Shown: piece by piece, positions 34,647 through 40,180 of the stretch
Layout of the letters: every line of letters starts with the position of its first letter
Numbering within the stretch: position 1 is the first letter of the stretch
Assembly (NCBI GenBank): GCA_016934265.1
Contig: JAFGTF010000107.1
Coordinates: 1 to 40,740, forward strand
Source of the DNA: Spirochaetota bacterium
GTDB lineage: Bacteria > Spirochaetota > B62-G9 > DRHN01
Direction of reading: 5' to 3'
DNA: 40,740 bases
The notes under the pieces: generated by a model
Seen by the model: only the letters and a program-made list of their open reading frames with translations
Database searches by the model: none
Told to the model about the DNA's origin: nothing
Program-made: the position numbers and the translations under genes

Positions 34647-35870
34647 TCAGACGCTCCCCCACACCCCGCGTATCACCTCACCGCAGAACCTGCAGGTCCC
34701 CTCTTTCGTGATTTCATAGCGGGTTACGACGTATCCCTCTCTCTTCACCACGACCGCACCGCACCCCGGGCAGACGGTGTCCTGAGCGCCGGCTTCGGGA
34801 ATGTTTCCGAGATAGACGTACTTCATCCCCTCCCGTCCGGCGATCCTTCCCGCCTCCCGGAGGGTCTCGACGGGGGTAGGGAAAAGGTGGGTGAGCCTGT
34901 GCATCGGAAAGAACCGGGAGAAATGAAGCGGGTACTCTTCGAACCCCCGTTCACAGAGCCAATGGCACATGCGCGCGATCATATCAAGATCGTCCGTCCA
35001 TCCCGGTATGACGAGGTTCGTGATCTCGAACCATACGCCCTCCTCCCTGCAGGTCTCGATCGTGTTAAGAACGGGTCTCAGCCTCCCGGCATTGAGCCTC
35101 GAGTAGATCCCCTCTTCGAAGCTCTTTAGATCGATGTTCGCCGCATCGATATATTTGCAAAGCTCCTTCAGCGGCGTCTCGTTTATATACCCGTTCGTTA
35201 CCCATACGTTTTTGAGGCCCCGCTCCCGCGCAAGCCGTGCCGTGTCGAACATGTACTCGTAGAATGCGGTGGGCTCGGAGTAGGTATAGGCGACTGAAAG
35301 GCAGCCACCGGCGGTTGCGGCACGGACAACCTCCTGCGGGGGCAGGTCGTAGTTTTCCGTTTCCTCCGGCGACGACTGTGATATCGACCAGTTCTGGCAG
35401 TTTAGGCAGCGGAGGTTGCATCCCGCAGTGGCGATGGAGAATATCCGTGTTGCCGGGTAAAAGTGAAAAAGCGGTTTCTTTTCCATCGGATCGATGTGGA
35501 CCGCGCACGGGTTTCCGTAGGCGAGCGTGTAAAGCTTGCCGTCGAGGTATACCTTGTTCCTGCATATGCTCCTGTCTCCGGGCCGCAGCGTGCACTCGTT
35601 CGGGCATACGAGACATGTCACGTTCCTGCCCGTCTTTCTGTAGTGATAAGCCTCCTTAGACCAGCGCCACAACTTCTTCGGTGCCCTGTTCCGGAATACG
35701 GAGGATTCGGCCCGCTGGCGGTCGCCGGGCGCGAACCCGCACAGGCCGAAGGCGGCCGCGGCGCACGCGGCCGCGGCGCACGCGTCGAGCGAGGCCCGCA
35801 GGAAACCGCGCCTCGTGACGGTTTCTTCCCCCGCACGACCGGCGCATTCATTTTTTCGCCCCTTCTTCAT
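34647..35870 (-). CDS. amrS: AmmeMemoRadiSam radical SAM enzyme (AmrS) with Tat-type signal
   Basis: The 407-residue protein belongs to the AmrS group of PflA-like radical SAM enzymes. The cluster motif is CNLRCLNC (Cys151, Cys155, Cys158), preceded by an N-terminal four-Cys region (CLVCPNEC, about residues 86-93, then SICRNK) and ending with a zinc-ribbon-like CPGCG...CRFCG pair. The N-terminus has a twin-arginine-like signal TRRGFLRAS (Arg20, Arg21) and an Ala-rich hydrophobic stretch to about residue 46, followed by a Pro/Gly/Arg segment. Radical SAM enzymes are usually cytosolic, so export or membrane anchoring is unexpected. Partners MEMO and AMMECR1 are encoded as a fusion at 38633. The reaction is not established. 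Confidence 0.88.
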   Translation of the reverse strand: MKKGRKNECAGRAGEETVTRRGFLRASLDACAAAACAAAAFGLCGFAPGDRQRAESSVFRNRAPKKLWRWSKEAYHYRKTGRNVTCLVCPNECTLRPGDRSICRNKVYLDGKLYTLAYGNPCAVHIDPMEKKPLFHFYPATRIFSIATAGCNLRCLNCQNWSISQSSPEETENYDLPPQEVVRAATAGGCLSVAYTYSEPTAFYEYMFDTARLARERGLKNVWVTNGYINETPLKELCKYIDAANIDLKSFEEGIYSRLNAGRLRPVLNTIETCREEGVWFEITNLVIPGWTDDLDMIARMCHWLCERGFEEYPLHFSRFFPMHRLTHLFPTPVETLREAGRIAGREGMKYVYLGNIPEAGAQDTVCPGCGAVVVKREGYVVTRYEITKEGTCRFCGEVIRGVWGSV

Positions 35871-35931
35871 TCCCGGTTCCCCTGTTTGTATTACCGGCCG
35901 CCTCTTCTAAAATCCTACCCGCCATCCTTCA

Positions 35932-38103
35932 TCATGTCAACCGCCGTTGTATGCCCCTCTTGCCGGCGAGCACCACGATAAGGCCTGAGGCGGCAATACC
36001 GCCTGCTATTCCGCACACCTTAACGATTCCTAAAAGCGGTATCAGGATCGCTGTCACAAGGAGCGCGCCGAGACACGCCCCGAAGAGGTCCGCACTGTAG
36101 AGCGACGCCGCGGTAGGCGGCACCCCCCGAAAGTGCAGCTTCGCCGCCAGGGGGAATTCGGCCCCCACGAGAAACCCGATTGCAGCGGTCGTCAAAGGCA
36201 GCGCCACCTGAGTGCCGATGAAAAAAAGCCGGGCTGCGGTAACAGCCCTCAGTGCGAAGAGTAAAAGCGGCACGATTCCTGCGGCGGCGACCAAAAAAAG
36301 CAGTATGAGTACGAGCTGTCCGAATCCCGCGCGTTTAAGCCGTCTGTTCATCGTGAAGGACCCCGCGGCGAGACCGATCATGAACATCGTGACCAGCACG
36401 CCTATCATGTGGTACACGTATCCGTACAGGACCTGAAATCCGATGACGAGCACCATCTCGAGAGAGGCGCCCGTGAACCCGGTGGCGAACACCGCAAACG
36501 GAATCGGCTTGACCCTCGCAAGGTACGAAACAGTGAGGCCTGCAATCACGCCGATGAAGAGCAGGTAGTCGAACCTGAATTGCGAAAGCCAGAAACGCAG
36601 GTAGTAGTGATAAGACACGGGGAAAAAATCCCTGTTCACCGCGTAGTCCCCCGAGATCGCGTCACGTGCCATACGCACCCTGTCCTCCGACAGCTTCGCA
36701 GGCAGATAGTAGCGGTTGACCCACTGTGTTTTTACCCCCTTCGCCTCGATACGCCCCGCTATGTCGTAGGAAAGTTCAGCATCGGATGCGATAAGACGGT
36801 TCTTCTCCCCCGGGATCACGATGACGTGGTCGAAACTTCGCTCGAGCGTTCGGTAGACCGACCCGTTGAGCAGTTTCGCCTCCCGCGACAGGTAGTTCTC
36901 CTGGGAGCTTATGCCGATCGACAGGACGGCGTCTTCTCTCATCGCGCCCGCAACTTCATGGAAGAACTCGTCCGTGTAGAACCTGTTGAGCTGGGCCGTG
37001 GAGGGGTCCGGGAGGTCTATGATGACGACGTCGTACCAAGCGGGCGCCCGTTTCACGAAAAGCCGGGCATCCATTTCGATCGTTCTGATTCGTTCGTCTT
37101 CGAGGTTATCCGTATACCGTTTGCCGATCTCGATGATGAGCGGATCGAGCTCAATATAATCGATCCGTTCGGGTCCGTACTTCAGTATCTCCTTCGTGGT
37201 TCCGGAGACGCCGCCCGAAACGAGCAGCACGTTTTCCGGTCGGTCGTGCTGCGCCATCGCGTAGTGGACGGCCTCTTCGTTCGCGATCGTGTTGTGCGTG
37301 CTGAAGAGGACGACGCCGTTTTCGTAGAAGTTGAGCTGTTCTCCCGTTTTTGTGACGACGAGACTGCCGTATTTCGAATTCCGGTGATATACTACCTTCT
37401 GCCCGGGGTACTGCAGCGCGACCGTCCTCCCGTCGATATCGAGAATAAAGATCGCGGGGGAAAGAAAAAGAAGCGCCGCCGACAGGACCGTAAGCGGACG
37501 CATTTTTTCGATGCTCGAAAAGACCGCGGCGGCCGTGAGGTTGAGCGCGAGGCATAGATACAAAGCCTGCAGGTGGCCGGTGATATGTACGAGCAGGAAG
37601 CTGAATAAAAGGCCCCCGGCGATATCTCCGATATTGTCGATGAAATACACGCGGCCGATGGATCCTGGACCGCCCTGCGGCGCATAAACCGTGCAGAAGA
37701 GCGTCAGAAGGGCACCGGATACGAAGCAATAGGGGATAAGAAGCCCGAACGTAACGCAAAACGTCGAAAGCGGTGAGACTGCAGCTCCGGCCGTGAAGAG
37801 GGCGGCACGAAGCCCTCGTATGAATACGAGGACGAAGAACGGCATCACGGCGATCAGGATTTGACAGGCTATAAGGAGAGAGACGGGGTTTTTACTCCTC
37901 TCGCAGTATCGCCCCGCCCAGGCGCCCGCGCCGGTAAGAAAAAGCCAGACCGCAAGGATGACCCCGATGACGAGCTCGTTACCGCAGAAGACCGACAAGA
38001 GCTCCCTCATCACGACGAGCTGGGTTATGATGGACGATATCCCGAGCGCGCTTACTGAAACGACCAGCGCCCCTTTGTTCCTTGATACCTCTCTCGATTC
38101 CAT
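35932..38103 (-). CDS. Polytopic membrane protein with spermidine-synthase-like domain
   Basis: The 723-residue protein has three parts. An N-terminal membrane region (about residues 10-220, six or seven segments) comes first. A central domain resembling spermidine/spermine synthase methyltransferase-fold enzymes follows (about 235-490): VLLVSGGVSG (292-301), the acidic IELD strand end (Glu318, Asp320), IIDLPDPSTAQLNRFYTDEF (361-380). A C-terminal membrane region (about 515-715, six or seven segments) ends the protein. The nucleotide-loop motif GGGDGG of true aminopropyltransferases is degenerate here (SGGVSG), so polyamine synthesis is doubtful. Fused membrane-spermidine-synthase proteins often neighbour AmmeMemoRadiSam genes; it lies 61 bases upstream of amrS on the same strand. 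ATG 38103 has only a weak site. Confidence 0.85.
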   Translation of the reverse strand: MESREVSRNKGALVVSVSALGISSIITQLVVMRELLSVFCGNELVIGVILAVWLFLTGAGAWAGRYCERSKNPVSLLIACQILIAVMPFFVLVFIRGLRAALFTAGAAVSPLSTFCVTFGLLIPYCFVSGALLTLFCTVYAPQGGPGSIGRVYFIDNIGDIAGGLLFSFLLVHITGHLQALYLCLALNLTAAAVFSSIEKMRPLTVLSAALLFLSPAIFILDIDGRTVALQYPGQKVVYHRNSKYGSLVVTKTGEQLNFYENGVVLFSTHNTIANEEAVHYAMAQHDRPENVLLVSGGVSGTTKEILKYGPERIDYIELDPLIIEIGKRYTDNLEDERIRTIEMDARLFVKRAPAWYDVVIIDLPDPSTAQLNRFYTDEFFHEVAGAMREDAVLSIGISSQENYLSREAKLLNGSVYRTLERSFDHVIVIPGEKNRLIASDAELSYDIAGRIEAKGVKTQWVNRYYLPAKLSEDRVRMARDAISGDYAVNRDFFPVSYHYYLRFWLSQFRFDYLLFIGVIAGLTVSYLARVKPIPFAVFATGFTGASLEMVLVIGFQVLYGYVYHMIGVLVTMFMIGLAAGSFTMNRRLKRAGFGQLVLILLFLVAAAGIVPLLLFALRAVTAARLFFIGTQVALPLTTAAIGFLVGAEFPLAAKLHFRGVPPTAASLYSADLFGACLGALLVTAILIPLLGIVKVCGIAGGIAASGLIVVLAGKRGIQRRLT

Positions 38104-38315
38104 TCTTTATCCCGCCGGTTTCTTCCATGCAGGCTTCGCTTCCGCACCGCATTATAATACTAGATGCGGTCCGTTTCCCTGTCAAGCGATATGGATATAG
38201 CCTGAACTATCTCAAGAATGCGGTGCATCGTATCGCTTTTACTAGTACTCGGCGCCCCGGTGCCGGTGTATATTCAAAGAGGGGAATAAAATCAGGTTCT
38301 TCTCCAAAATAGTTG

Positions 38316-38490
38316 CAATAAATTATGGGAATAGTAACCATGACTGTGTCATTAATACGAGGCGTAAGACAACATCATCCGATGTTGTCTTTACTGCAGA
38401 GGGCAAAAGTCGCCTATGGCTCATATCGAGACTTTATGCCTCAATCAACGAAGTTATCTCTTAAGACAGTCATTTATTGTCCTTTTTTTA
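38316..38490 (+). ncRNA. Candidate structured RNA in the divergent gap before the MEMO-AMMECR1 gene
   Basis: Several nested complementary segments occur in order. CAATAA (38316-) pairs with TTATTG (-38479). ATGACTGT (38340-38347) pairs with ACAGTCAT (38466-38473). GAGGCGTAA (38359-38367) pairs with TTATGCCTC (38434-38442, one G-U). Inside lies a perfect hairpin GACAACATC / GATGTTGTC (38368-38389; 11 pairs if AA/TT are included). A run of seven T (38483-38489) follows the outer stem. Nested long-range pairing plus a T-run is what a small independent RNA or leader element looks like. I do not recognise it as 6S, SRP, RNase P or tmRNA. No protein-coding frame fits. The strand is chosen from the T-run; a promoter is not clear. 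Confidence 0.4.
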
Positions 38491-38502
38491 GATCGGCTCC
38501 AT

Positions 38503-38539
38503 GACATGGTATGAACGTCTCGGCCGCTCATGCCATGTC
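38503..38539 (+). repeat. Second stem-loop before the MEMO-AMMECR1 gene
   Basis: GACATGGTATGA and TCATGCCATGTC form a 12-pair stem (one G-U) with a 13-base loop, 13 bases after the T-run of the candidate RNA. It ends 93 bases before the ATG at 38633. It could be a second hairpin of the same element or a leader structure. Confidence 0.45.
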
Positions 38540-38632
38540 TTGCAGAAAGAGATTATGATCATTTATAGCTATGATTATAGTTAATAAGTACTTTCATTAT
38601 ATTTTTGCACTTAAATCGGAAAAGAACATAAA

Positions 38633-40180
38633 ATGAAAATCGAACGTTTCTACCGGATAGCCGCCTGCCTTCTTTTGTCTGCGACGACTTTCTTTCCCGC
38701 CGCAATCCGTGCAGGCAACGACGTTTCGTTCCGTGATCCCGCGGTTGCGGGGACTTTCTACCCGTCCGATCCCGTAGCGCTCGAAGCGCTCGTAGACGGG
38801 TATCTGAAACTAGCCGCCCGCATATGCGTACCGCCGAAGGAACGAAAAGAGGTGGTCATGCTTCTCGCGCCGCACGCAGGCTACGAGTTTTCGGGGCTCA
38901 CCGCCGCCTGCGCCTTCTTTTCGCTCGAAGGCGCGGATTACGACACGGTGGTCCTTCTCGGCTGCCCGCACAAAATCGGGGTAAAAGGTGCCGCCGTTTT
39001 CTGCGGAAAGGGGTTTCGCATGCCATGGGGCAGTGTGCCGGTGGACGGCGTGCTAGCGAGGGCCGTTGTCGACGCCTCTGCCGTAATCACCGACGACCCT
39101 CGCCCGCATCTGCCGGAGCATTCTCTCGAGGTCGAGCTCCCCTTCCTCTCCCGAGTCCTTGACGGCTACTCGATAGTTCCCGTGCTCGTTTCGGGAGACC
39201 GTCATACGCTCGAGCTCGTGGCGCAGGGGATCGTCGATGCGCTTCGAAAAAGCCGGGGCGGCACGAACGGCGTGCTCTTCGTCGTATCCACGGATCTTTC
39301 CCACTACCCCAGAAAGCGCGACGCGGAAAAAGGCGACCGGGAGATGCTCGAGGCGTTCTGCACCCTTGACGCGGAGGCTTTAGTGTCGAAAGACAAAGAG
39401 ATCATGAGACGGAATGCCGAGGGGCTTTTATGCACCATGTGCGGCCTTGATGCAGCCTATGTGGGAATACGAATCGCGAACATGATCGGAGGGGAGAAGG
39501 CCTACGTGGCGCACATGAGCACGAGCGCGGATGCGAAGGTCCCGGGTGTTTCTGCGGAGAAGACGGTCGGGTACGGCGCTGTAGTGGTAACGGGCAGAAG
39601 AAAACCGCTCGTCTCGAGGTTCGACCCCCTAAAGCCCGACGAGGGGAAGTACCTCCTCGATCTCGCGCGTCGTACGCTCGAAGAGTATCTGAAATGCGGG
39701 AAGGTCGTCGATCCCGATATTCCCGCCGAGTACGCCCCGCATCTTGACGAACGAAGAGGGCTTTTCGTCACCCTCTACCGGCAGGGCGCGCTGCGCGGGT
39801 GCATCGGGTGTCACATGTCGTCTCTTCCGCTTCACAAGGCGGTACAGCTCATGACGCTCGAGAGCGCGCTGCACGACCCGAGGTTTTCTCCTCTTCGTTC
39901 CGAAGAGCTCGACGGCATACGGATCGAGCTGTCCGTGTATCTCACGCATGTCGAGCCGATCTCGTCTGCAGGTGAGTACGTACCCGGAACGCACGGCATC
40001 ATACTGACGAATAAAGACAGGTCCGCCACGTTCCTTCCGCAGGTCCCGATAGAGCAGGGGTGGGACAGGAAGGAAACGCTTCGGCAGCTCTCAGTCAAGG
40101 CGGGGCTGCCCCCTGACGCATGGAAGGAAAAAGATACGGCGTTCAGCGTCTACGAGACGCAGATCTTCAGCGAGCGATGA
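38633..40180 (+). CDS. MEMO-AMMECR1 fusion protein with signal peptide (AmrB-AmrA)
   Basis: The 515-residue protein fuses two AmmeMemoRadiSam partners. The MEMO domain (about residues 33-322) has AGTFYP, His81 in APHAGYEFSG, His163 in EHSLEVELPF, His224 in STDLSHY and Cys270 in CTMCGLDA, which match the MEMO metal-site pattern. The AMMECR1 domain (about 335-513) has GLFVTLYRQGALRGCIGC (377-393). The two are often separate genes. A Sec signal peptide (MKIERFYR, hydrophobic core to about residue 25, probable cleavage after IRA) predicts export, paralleling the Tat-like signal on amrS. Gene and fusion are transcribed divergently from the membrane synthase-like gene. The Shine-Dalgarno is weak (GGAAAAG). 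The biochemical role of the system is unknown. Confidence 0.92.
   Translation: MKIERFYRIAACLLLSATTFFPAAIRAGNDVSFRDPAVAGTFYPSDPVALEALVDGYLKLAARICVPPKERKEVVMLLAPHAGYEFSGLTAACAFFSLEGADYDTVVLLGCPHKIGVKGAAVFCGKGFRMPWGSVPVDGVLARAVVDASAVITDDPRPHLPEHSLEVELPFLSRVLDGYSIVPVLVSGDRHTLELVAQGIVDALRKSRGGTNGVLFVVSTDLSHYPRKRDAEKGDREMLEAFCTLDAEALVSKDKEIMRRNAEGLLCTMCGLDAAYVGIRIANMIGGEKAYVAHMSTSADAKVPGVSAEKTVGYGAVVVTGRRKPLVSRFDPLKPDEGKYLLDLARRTLEEYLKCGKVVDPDIPAEYAPHLDERRGLFVTLYRQGALRGCIGCHMSSLPLHKAVQLMTLESALHDPRFSPLRSEELDGIRIELSVYLTHVEPISSAGEYVPGTHGIILTNKDRSATFLPQVPIEQGWDRKETLRQLSVKAGLPPDAWKEKDTAFSVYETQIFSER

Follow-up and report, generated by a model that had tools for sequence, protein, structure and literature searches.

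Can a radical S-adenosylmethionine (SAM) enzyme work on the outer side of the cytoplasmic membrane? To our knowledge, radical SAM enzymes are known only from inside cells; their dependence on SAM and on low-potential electrons is the reason why they are regarded as proteins of the cytoplasm or of organelles. The question is raised by an AmmeMemoRadiSam system encoded by a Spirochaetota bacterium (assembly GCA_016934265.1, contig JAFGTF010000107.1), in a stretch of 40,740 nucleotides that was analysed whole and is termed here the window. The locus sits on contig C12 of a 3.83-Mb genome that is 92.9% complete, and it comprises the radical SAM enzyme AmrS, a MEMO-AMMECR1 fusion, and a membrane protein that we name SpdMFS, for the fused major facilitator superfamily (MFS)/spermidine synthase (NF037959). 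An earlier, sequence-only reading had assigned a twin-arginine-like signal to AmrS, a Sec signal to the fusion and a spermidine-synthase-like domain to a large membrane protein, and had placed the system at or outside the cytoplasmic membrane, with the alternative that the N-termini are anchors instead. Humans have conserved MEMO1 and AMMECR1 proteins, yet the literature searched (subscription papers and preprints excluded) yielded neither a function for the AmmeMemoRadiSam family nor a report of an exported AmmeMemoRadiSam system or a periplasmic radical SAM enzyme. As developed below, the window's trio is probably an extracytoplasmic form of AmmeMemoRadiSam, whose cytoplasmic paralogue is encoded elsewhere in the genome.

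All three open reading frames were found where the sequence-only reading had placed them. AmrS (407 aa; 34647-35870, minus strand) scores 357 bits against TIGR04337 (cut-off 220), and the MEMO-AMMECR1 fusion (515 aa; 38633-40180, plus strand) scores 194 bits against TIGR04336 (cut-off 26) and 157 bits against TIGR04335 (cut-off 99). SpdMFS (723 aa; 35932-38103, minus strand), which lies between them, scores 61.8 bits against NF037959 MFS_SpdSyn (cut-off 40) and also matches PF01564. The fusion gene is divergent from SpdMFS-AmrS and lies 2.8 kb from AmrS, such that the trio does not form a single operon. The same genome carries a second AmrS on contig C50 (332 bits; N-terminus MDTEARFYKRVDSDRVRCGLC), without a signal, and contig C69 encodes a separate MEMO (301 aa) and AMMECR1, neither with a signal. 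With a complete signal-less trio in the genome, the window's trio is therefore a paralogous, exported and fused version; this cytoplasmic counterpart had not figured in the sequence-only reading. The C50 copy (L002/L055) adjoins genes for Hpre_diP_synt_I (PF07456) and NusG_II (PF07009) proteins, and similar clusters were seen at 8 and 6 loci with a signal-less AmrS and at no signal-bearing locus.

The export signal of AmrS occupies residues 1-45 (35736-35870, minus strand). The N-terminus, MKKGRKNECAGRAGEETVTRRGFLRASLDACAAAACAAAAFGLCGFA, presents the sequence TRRGFLRAS (TRRGFL at 35799-35816, minus strand) followed by a hydrophobic helix, as in substrates of the twin-arginine translocation (Tat) pathway. 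Signals were called by a simple rule, in which a Tat-type signal is an RR/KR/RK-x-hydrophobic motif followed by an uncharged segment, and a Sec-type signal is an uncharged segment with a Kyte-Doolittle (KD) hydropathy of at least 1.9. Only 66 of 20000 composition-preserving shuffles of AmrS residues 2-66 satisfied the Tat rule, and none of 370 control N-termini starting at internal methionines in AmrS proteins was positive. An AlphaFold model (pLDDT 91) places a helix at residues 20-43; beyond a disordered linker, a domain modelled with confidence starts at about residue 67. The genome encodes TatC (1.5e-67). The twin-arginine-like signal is thus borne out, and we infer from these features that AmrS is moved across the membrane as a Tat substrate. 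The helix lacks a convincing cleavage site, because its AxA-like GFA is followed by Pro; AmrS is therefore probably tethered. In 32 of 40 AmrS proteins, the 15 residues that precede the hydrophobic segment have a higher net charge than the sequence that follows it (p 6e-6), an asymmetry that predicts an N-in/C-out orientation with the catalytic domain outside. The suggestion that the N-termini are anchors thus holds to the extent that the AmrS helix may stay in the membrane, but the charges would still put the domain on the far side. Downstream starts, which the sequence-only reading had also named as a possible refutation, were examined. ATG1 is preceded by AGGGG, long N-termini are conserved, and upstream of the first conserved cysteine (C86) there are just two other possible starts, TTG at codon 67 and GTG at codon 84.

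The N-terminus of the fusion (MKIERFYRIAACLLLSATTFFPAAIRA; MKIERFYRIAACLLLSATTFFPAAIRAGND) carries a Sec signal peptide in residues 1-27 (38633-38713, plus strand) with possible cleavage between AIRA and GN. As many as 3328 of 20000 shuffles satisfy the Sec rule, which makes the call weak on the single sequence, and 16 of 455 internal-methionine controls in MEMO proteins were positive; the case for this signal therefore rests on its conservation in relatives, and on that footing the assignment of a Sec signal stands. Lipobox-like sites occur in 21 of 62 MEMO partner proteins.

Relatives were sampled in two ways. AmrS was used to search 60 relatives, and the neighbourhoods of 40 copies were fetched; separately, 80 named loci were gathered with the MEMO-AMMECR1 fusion as query, with no selection on the AmrS N-terminus. 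The related loci span over a dozen phylum-level groups, including Bacteroidota, Acidobacteriota, Omnitrophota, Aminicenantes, Deltaproteobacteria, Elusimicrobia, KSB1, Planctomycetota, Neomarinimicrobiota, WOR-3, Hebobacteria, Zipacnadia and others. Among AmrS genes with callable MEMO neighbours, an exported MEMO stands beside 36/36 signal-bearing vs 7/13 signal-less copies (Fisher p 1e-4), and among those with enough flanking sequence, 26/32 signal-bearing vs 3/27 signal-less copies have SpdMFS no more than 5 kb away (p 6e-8). In the signal-bearing clade, signals on AmrS are matched by signals on the fusion, and SpdMFS is in most cases a direct neighbour. An earlier, stricter hydrophobicity rule had given p 0.12 for signal co-occurrence; it missed Tat h-regions and gave way to the rule above, which includes a Tat branch.

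A tree of 85 AmrS cores, built with the signal region left out and with L078, L126 and L163 excluded, divides along the same line. The signal label changes 7 times on this tree, compared with 28.8 when labels are shuffled, and none of 500 shuffles came as low. Orthologues without signals, for which the sequence-only reading had proposed to look, do exist: the canonical copies, including the second AmrS of the window's own genome, form a separate signal-less group. The other clade is largely signal-bearing. Nested within the exported group are four Bacteroidota loci (L098, L099, L135 and L137) in which both AmrS and MEMO are signal-less; no SpdMFS match was found in the first three, and L137 lies on too short a contig to tell. 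The window's AmrS groups with Bacteroidota and with a contig labelled Euryarchaeota archaeon SM23-78 (L158), whose AmrS is its closest match (60% identity), rather than with its own relatives, and a Bacteroidetes locus (L105) has a three-gene layout identical to the window's. Together, the tree position and the shared layout suggest lateral transfer. As for gene content, L078 (G002:C1:1674524-1674964) encodes only a fragment of AmrS (about 220 aa), in which the Tat signal is clear; G002 holds several AmrS copies, one with a masked run of X (L056). At L085:8215-10378, an exported MEMO-AMMECR1 fusion is followed by a second, signal-less AMMECR1 on its own.

The route of export appears to vary with the machinery at hand. 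TatC is present in 32/36 genomes with a Tat-type AmrS, and it was undetected in 3/5 Omnitrophota genomes whose AmrS has a Sec-type leader (L088, L095 and L102; Fisher p 0.028 for Tat-type vs Sec-type genomes). Among the 60 relatives, TatC occurs in 7/8 genomes with an exported AmrS vs 21/52 without (p 0.02). Replacement of Tat by Sec in lineages seemingly without TatC is expected if the destination of the protein, not the motif, is under selection.

The membrane partner fits the same picture. The AlphaFold model of SpdMFS (pLDDT 89, pTM 0.89) comprises a first membrane half of seven helices (residues 10-220; 37444-38076), a spermidine-synthase fold (residues 223-507; 36583-37437) and a second membrane half of seven helices (residues 514-713; 35965-36564), all on the minus strand, so that the sequence-only description of a large membrane protein with a spermidine-synthase-like domain is upheld as a 14-transmembrane-helix (14-TM) protein with an inserted domain. 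Lysine plus arginine per residue is 0.195 in inside loops vs 0.071 in outside loops, with the same bias in 33/33 homologues (p 5e-7), which predicts that both termini are in and that the spermidine-synthase (SpdSyn) domain is outside. Thus this domain appears to face outward too, a point that goes beyond the sequence-only reading. In Foldseek searches, the domain matches aminopropyltransferases (1uir, 1inl and others), and the membrane halves gave no match. The acids of the SAM site are kept among homologues (E318 in 23/26, D345 in 25/26), and R374 is invariant. In spermidine synthases, the acids of the GGGDGG and DxxDP motifs hold the amine and decarboxylated SAM (dcSAM). In SpdMFS the Asp of GGGDGG has given way to another residue, V299 in the window's protein, and the DxxD acids are not conserved over 26 homologues (position 363, N13 D4; position 366, D10 P5 E4). 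Moreover, SpdMFS scores far below the speE equivalog cut-offs (TIGR00417, 73.8 vs 249.55; NF002956, 201.3 vs 472), and the 92.9% complete genome has no PF02675 match for SpeD, the source of dcSAM, and no PF01564 match besides SpdMFS. Spermidine synthesis was considered as the role of SpdMFS and rejected on these grounds: with the aminopropyl-transfer acids lost and neither SpeD nor a second PF01564 protein found, SpdMFS probably does not make spermidine. It may instead handle SAM or the products of SAM.

The exported proteins also retain the residues expected of catalysts. The CxxxCxxC radical SAM [4Fe-4S] motif of AmrS (CNLRCLNC, residues 151-158; 35397-35420, minus strand) is intact in 42/42 exported and 43/43 signal-less copies. 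Its cysteines (C151/C155/C158), an N-terminal cluster (C86, C89, C93, C103; 35562-35615) and a C-terminal, rubredoxin/zinc-ribbon-like cluster (C367, C370, C393, C396; 34683-34772) are invariant in the 33 exported rows of the alignment. In the MEMO domain (residues 34-319; 38732-39589, plus strand), the putative metal ligands H81, H113 and C270 correspond to H49, H81 and C244 of human MEMO1 (PMC11081632), and they are conserved in 61/61, 60/61 and 59/61 exported fusions, respectively. The AMMECR1 domain (residues 340-512; 39650-40168, plus strand) carries the RGCIG motif (39794-39808), whose C390 is conserved in 60/61.

How might such a system operate? AmrS would acquire its Fe-S clusters in the cytoplasm and pass to Tat, after which its N-terminal helix would hold it on the outer face of the membrane. 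The MEMO-AMMECR1 fusion would leave via Sec, to be free in the window's organism and a lipoprotein in many relatives, and the 14-TM partner would display its SAM-binding spermidine-synthase fold on the same side. There, the fusion could be the target of AmrS, or it could hold the metal centre or substrate on which AmrS acts; AmrS would then work much like the glycyl-radical-enzyme activases, its nearest structural relatives. SpdMFS would bring SAM to the outer face or clear its products, and electrons might cross the membrane by lineage-specific modules: DsbD-like, FMN-bind/4Fe-4S, or possibly b-haem. Of this scheme, the targeting and the predicted topology rest on sequence, whereas translocation itself, extracytoplasmic activity, SAM supply via SpdMFS, electron routes and substrate go beyond it and are inferred. 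We are evenly divided on whether it describes a widespread, dedicated extracytoplasmic radical SAM pathway, in which Tat- or Sec-exported AmrS would cleave SAM beyond the cytoplasmic membrane, SpdMFS would present that SAM on its outward-facing domain, and the transmembrane electron modules would differ by lineage.

Several neighbours are candidates for the electron supply. A DsbD_2-family gene lies directly 3' of MEMO-AMMECR1 in 5/5 Sec-type Omnitrophota loci (L088, L089, L095, L101 and L102). At L157:3785-7420, SpdMFS forms a fusion with Fer4_5 and with FMN_bind, the latter bearing the flavinylation motif DALTGAT, possibly a transmembrane electron module built onto the partner protein. Six SpdMFS proteins from Bacteroidota/Aminicenantes (L115, L125, L126, L128, L130 and L132) have an extra hydrophobic N-terminal domain of about 110 aa with four invariant histidines; it may bind b-haem, and a Pfam scan gave no name for it. 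DUF362 proteins, several with RR signals, are encoded near 6 exported loci (L108, L118, L134, L138, L150 and L162) and near no signal-less locus. A regular-expression scan near exported loci for multihaem cytochromes and other redox genes found nothing recurrent besides the DsbD-like genes.

Some observations weigh against an extracytoplasmic system. The named loci were chosen by their MEMO-AMMECR1 fusion and derive mostly from metagenome-assembled genomes (MAGs), so that a missing TatC or SpeD may stem from incompleteness. The signals were called by a simple rule rather than by trained prediction software, KR or RK stands in place of RR in many AmrS proteins, and the labels of L045 (MEMO) and of L048, L097 and L108 (AmrS) were set by eye. 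The Fisher p values for the signal and SpdMFS pairings ignore relatedness, and a phylogeny-aware pairs test gave 2 independent contrasts on starred (well-supported) branches and 5 on all, none significant. Seven loci (L074, L091, L121, L122, L141, L145 and L157) combine an exported MEMO with a signal-less AmrS; in five of these (L091, L121, L122, L141 and L157), AmrS has an unusually short N-terminus that starts just before the first cysteine. In these discordant loci, AmrS may work inside, it may leave the cytoplasm together with a partner, or AmrS and MEMO may be paired more loosely than we propose. Genomes G018 and G030 resemble them, each with a short signal-less AmrS, a lipoprotein-like MEMO-AMMECR1 and a full-length SpdMFS elsewhere in the genome. 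Finally, L157, the best hint of an electron supply, is among the loci with a signal-less AmrS, and no electron module was identified in the window's own genome.

These observations leave room for other explanations. One is that the N-termini serve to anchor the proteins in the membrane or to dock them to Tat, with AmrS working on the cytoplasmic face. This arrangement would keep the enzyme near SAM and reductant, the objection raised in the sequence-only reading, and it would suit both the helix without a clear cleavage site and the KR/RK motifs of some relatives. We consider it unlikely, however, since positive charge precedes the AmrS helix rather than following it, the MEMO-AMMECR1 partners have Sec signals and lipobox-like sites that only make sense outside, and the SpdSyn domain is likewise predicted outside. 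The seven discordant loci, several with SpdMFS (L121, L122 and L157), point instead to a split arrangement, in which AmrS modifies or loads MEMO-AMMECR1 in the cytoplasm before its export and the AmrS signal is secondary in some lineages; TatC is present in all 5 discordant-locus genomes searched. Yet Sec substrates cross the membrane unfolded, and a folded cofactor loaded beforehand would therefore be lost. In the other 36 loci both proteins are exported, moreover, and the Omnitrophota retain a Sec-type AmrS signal even where TatC was undetected, which renders this division of labour quite unlikely.

Two further explanations concern the form and the activity of the exported enzyme. Initiation at TTG codon 67, which is located where signal-less orthologues start and has a weak AAGAAG upstream, could yield a cytoplasmic AmrS, with the long form minor. 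Such dual localization is highly improbable in a genome that already has a cytoplasmic AmrS, given the good AGGGG site at ATG1 and the long N-termini kept across a clade with differing signal types. The exported proteins might also form a metal-binding or scavenging complex on the same folds, rather than a radical SAM catalyst, as MEMO1 binds iron and copper (PMC11081632) and periplasmic SAM is not known. We give almost no weight to this idea: exported copies match cytoplasmic ones in the conservation of their core and of all cysteines, both radical SAM and auxiliary, and a SAM-binding fold is encoded beside the exported proteins. We therefore favour an extracytoplasmic system, and with the signals, their co-occurrence and the predicted topology, the placement at or outside the membrane is supported at the level of sequence. 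If true, this would be the first radical SAM system outside, and it would imply SAM and a strong reductant beyond the membrane. A conserved exported trio, probably laterally spread, would offer a handle on AmmeMemoRadiSam, and its membrane protein and redox neighbours add partners open to test, which the cytoplasmic form lacks.

Comparisons with known systems place these features in context. Both structural comparison (TMt 0.78-0.80) and profile search put the pyruvate formate-lyase activating enzyme (3cb8, 3c8f, 8fo0) nearest to AmrS among solved folds; that enzyme differs in being cytoplasmic and without a signal, lacks the N- and C-terminal cysteine clusters of AmrS, and is about 20% identical. 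Extracytosolic flavin modules (FMN_bind/Fer4_5; PMC8238504, which makes no mention of radical SAM, MEMO, AMMECR1 or spermidine synthase) resemble those carried by the SpdMFS of L157, whereas the window has no such fusion. SpdMFS shares its architecture and fold with the fused MFS/spermidine synthases (NF037959; PF01564), but it is linked to AmmeMemoRadiSam, its aminopropyl-transfer acids are not conserved, and no SpeD was found in the genome. A further comparison is with the cytoplasmic AmmeMemoRadiSam system (TIGR04335, TIGR04336, TIGR04337): the window's proteins match all three families above the curated cut-offs and keep the catalytic residues, yet they differ in carrying export signals on AmrS and MEMO-AMMECR1, in the fusion of MEMO to AMMECR1, in the attached SpdMFS gene, and in an AmrS that belongs to a separate clade.

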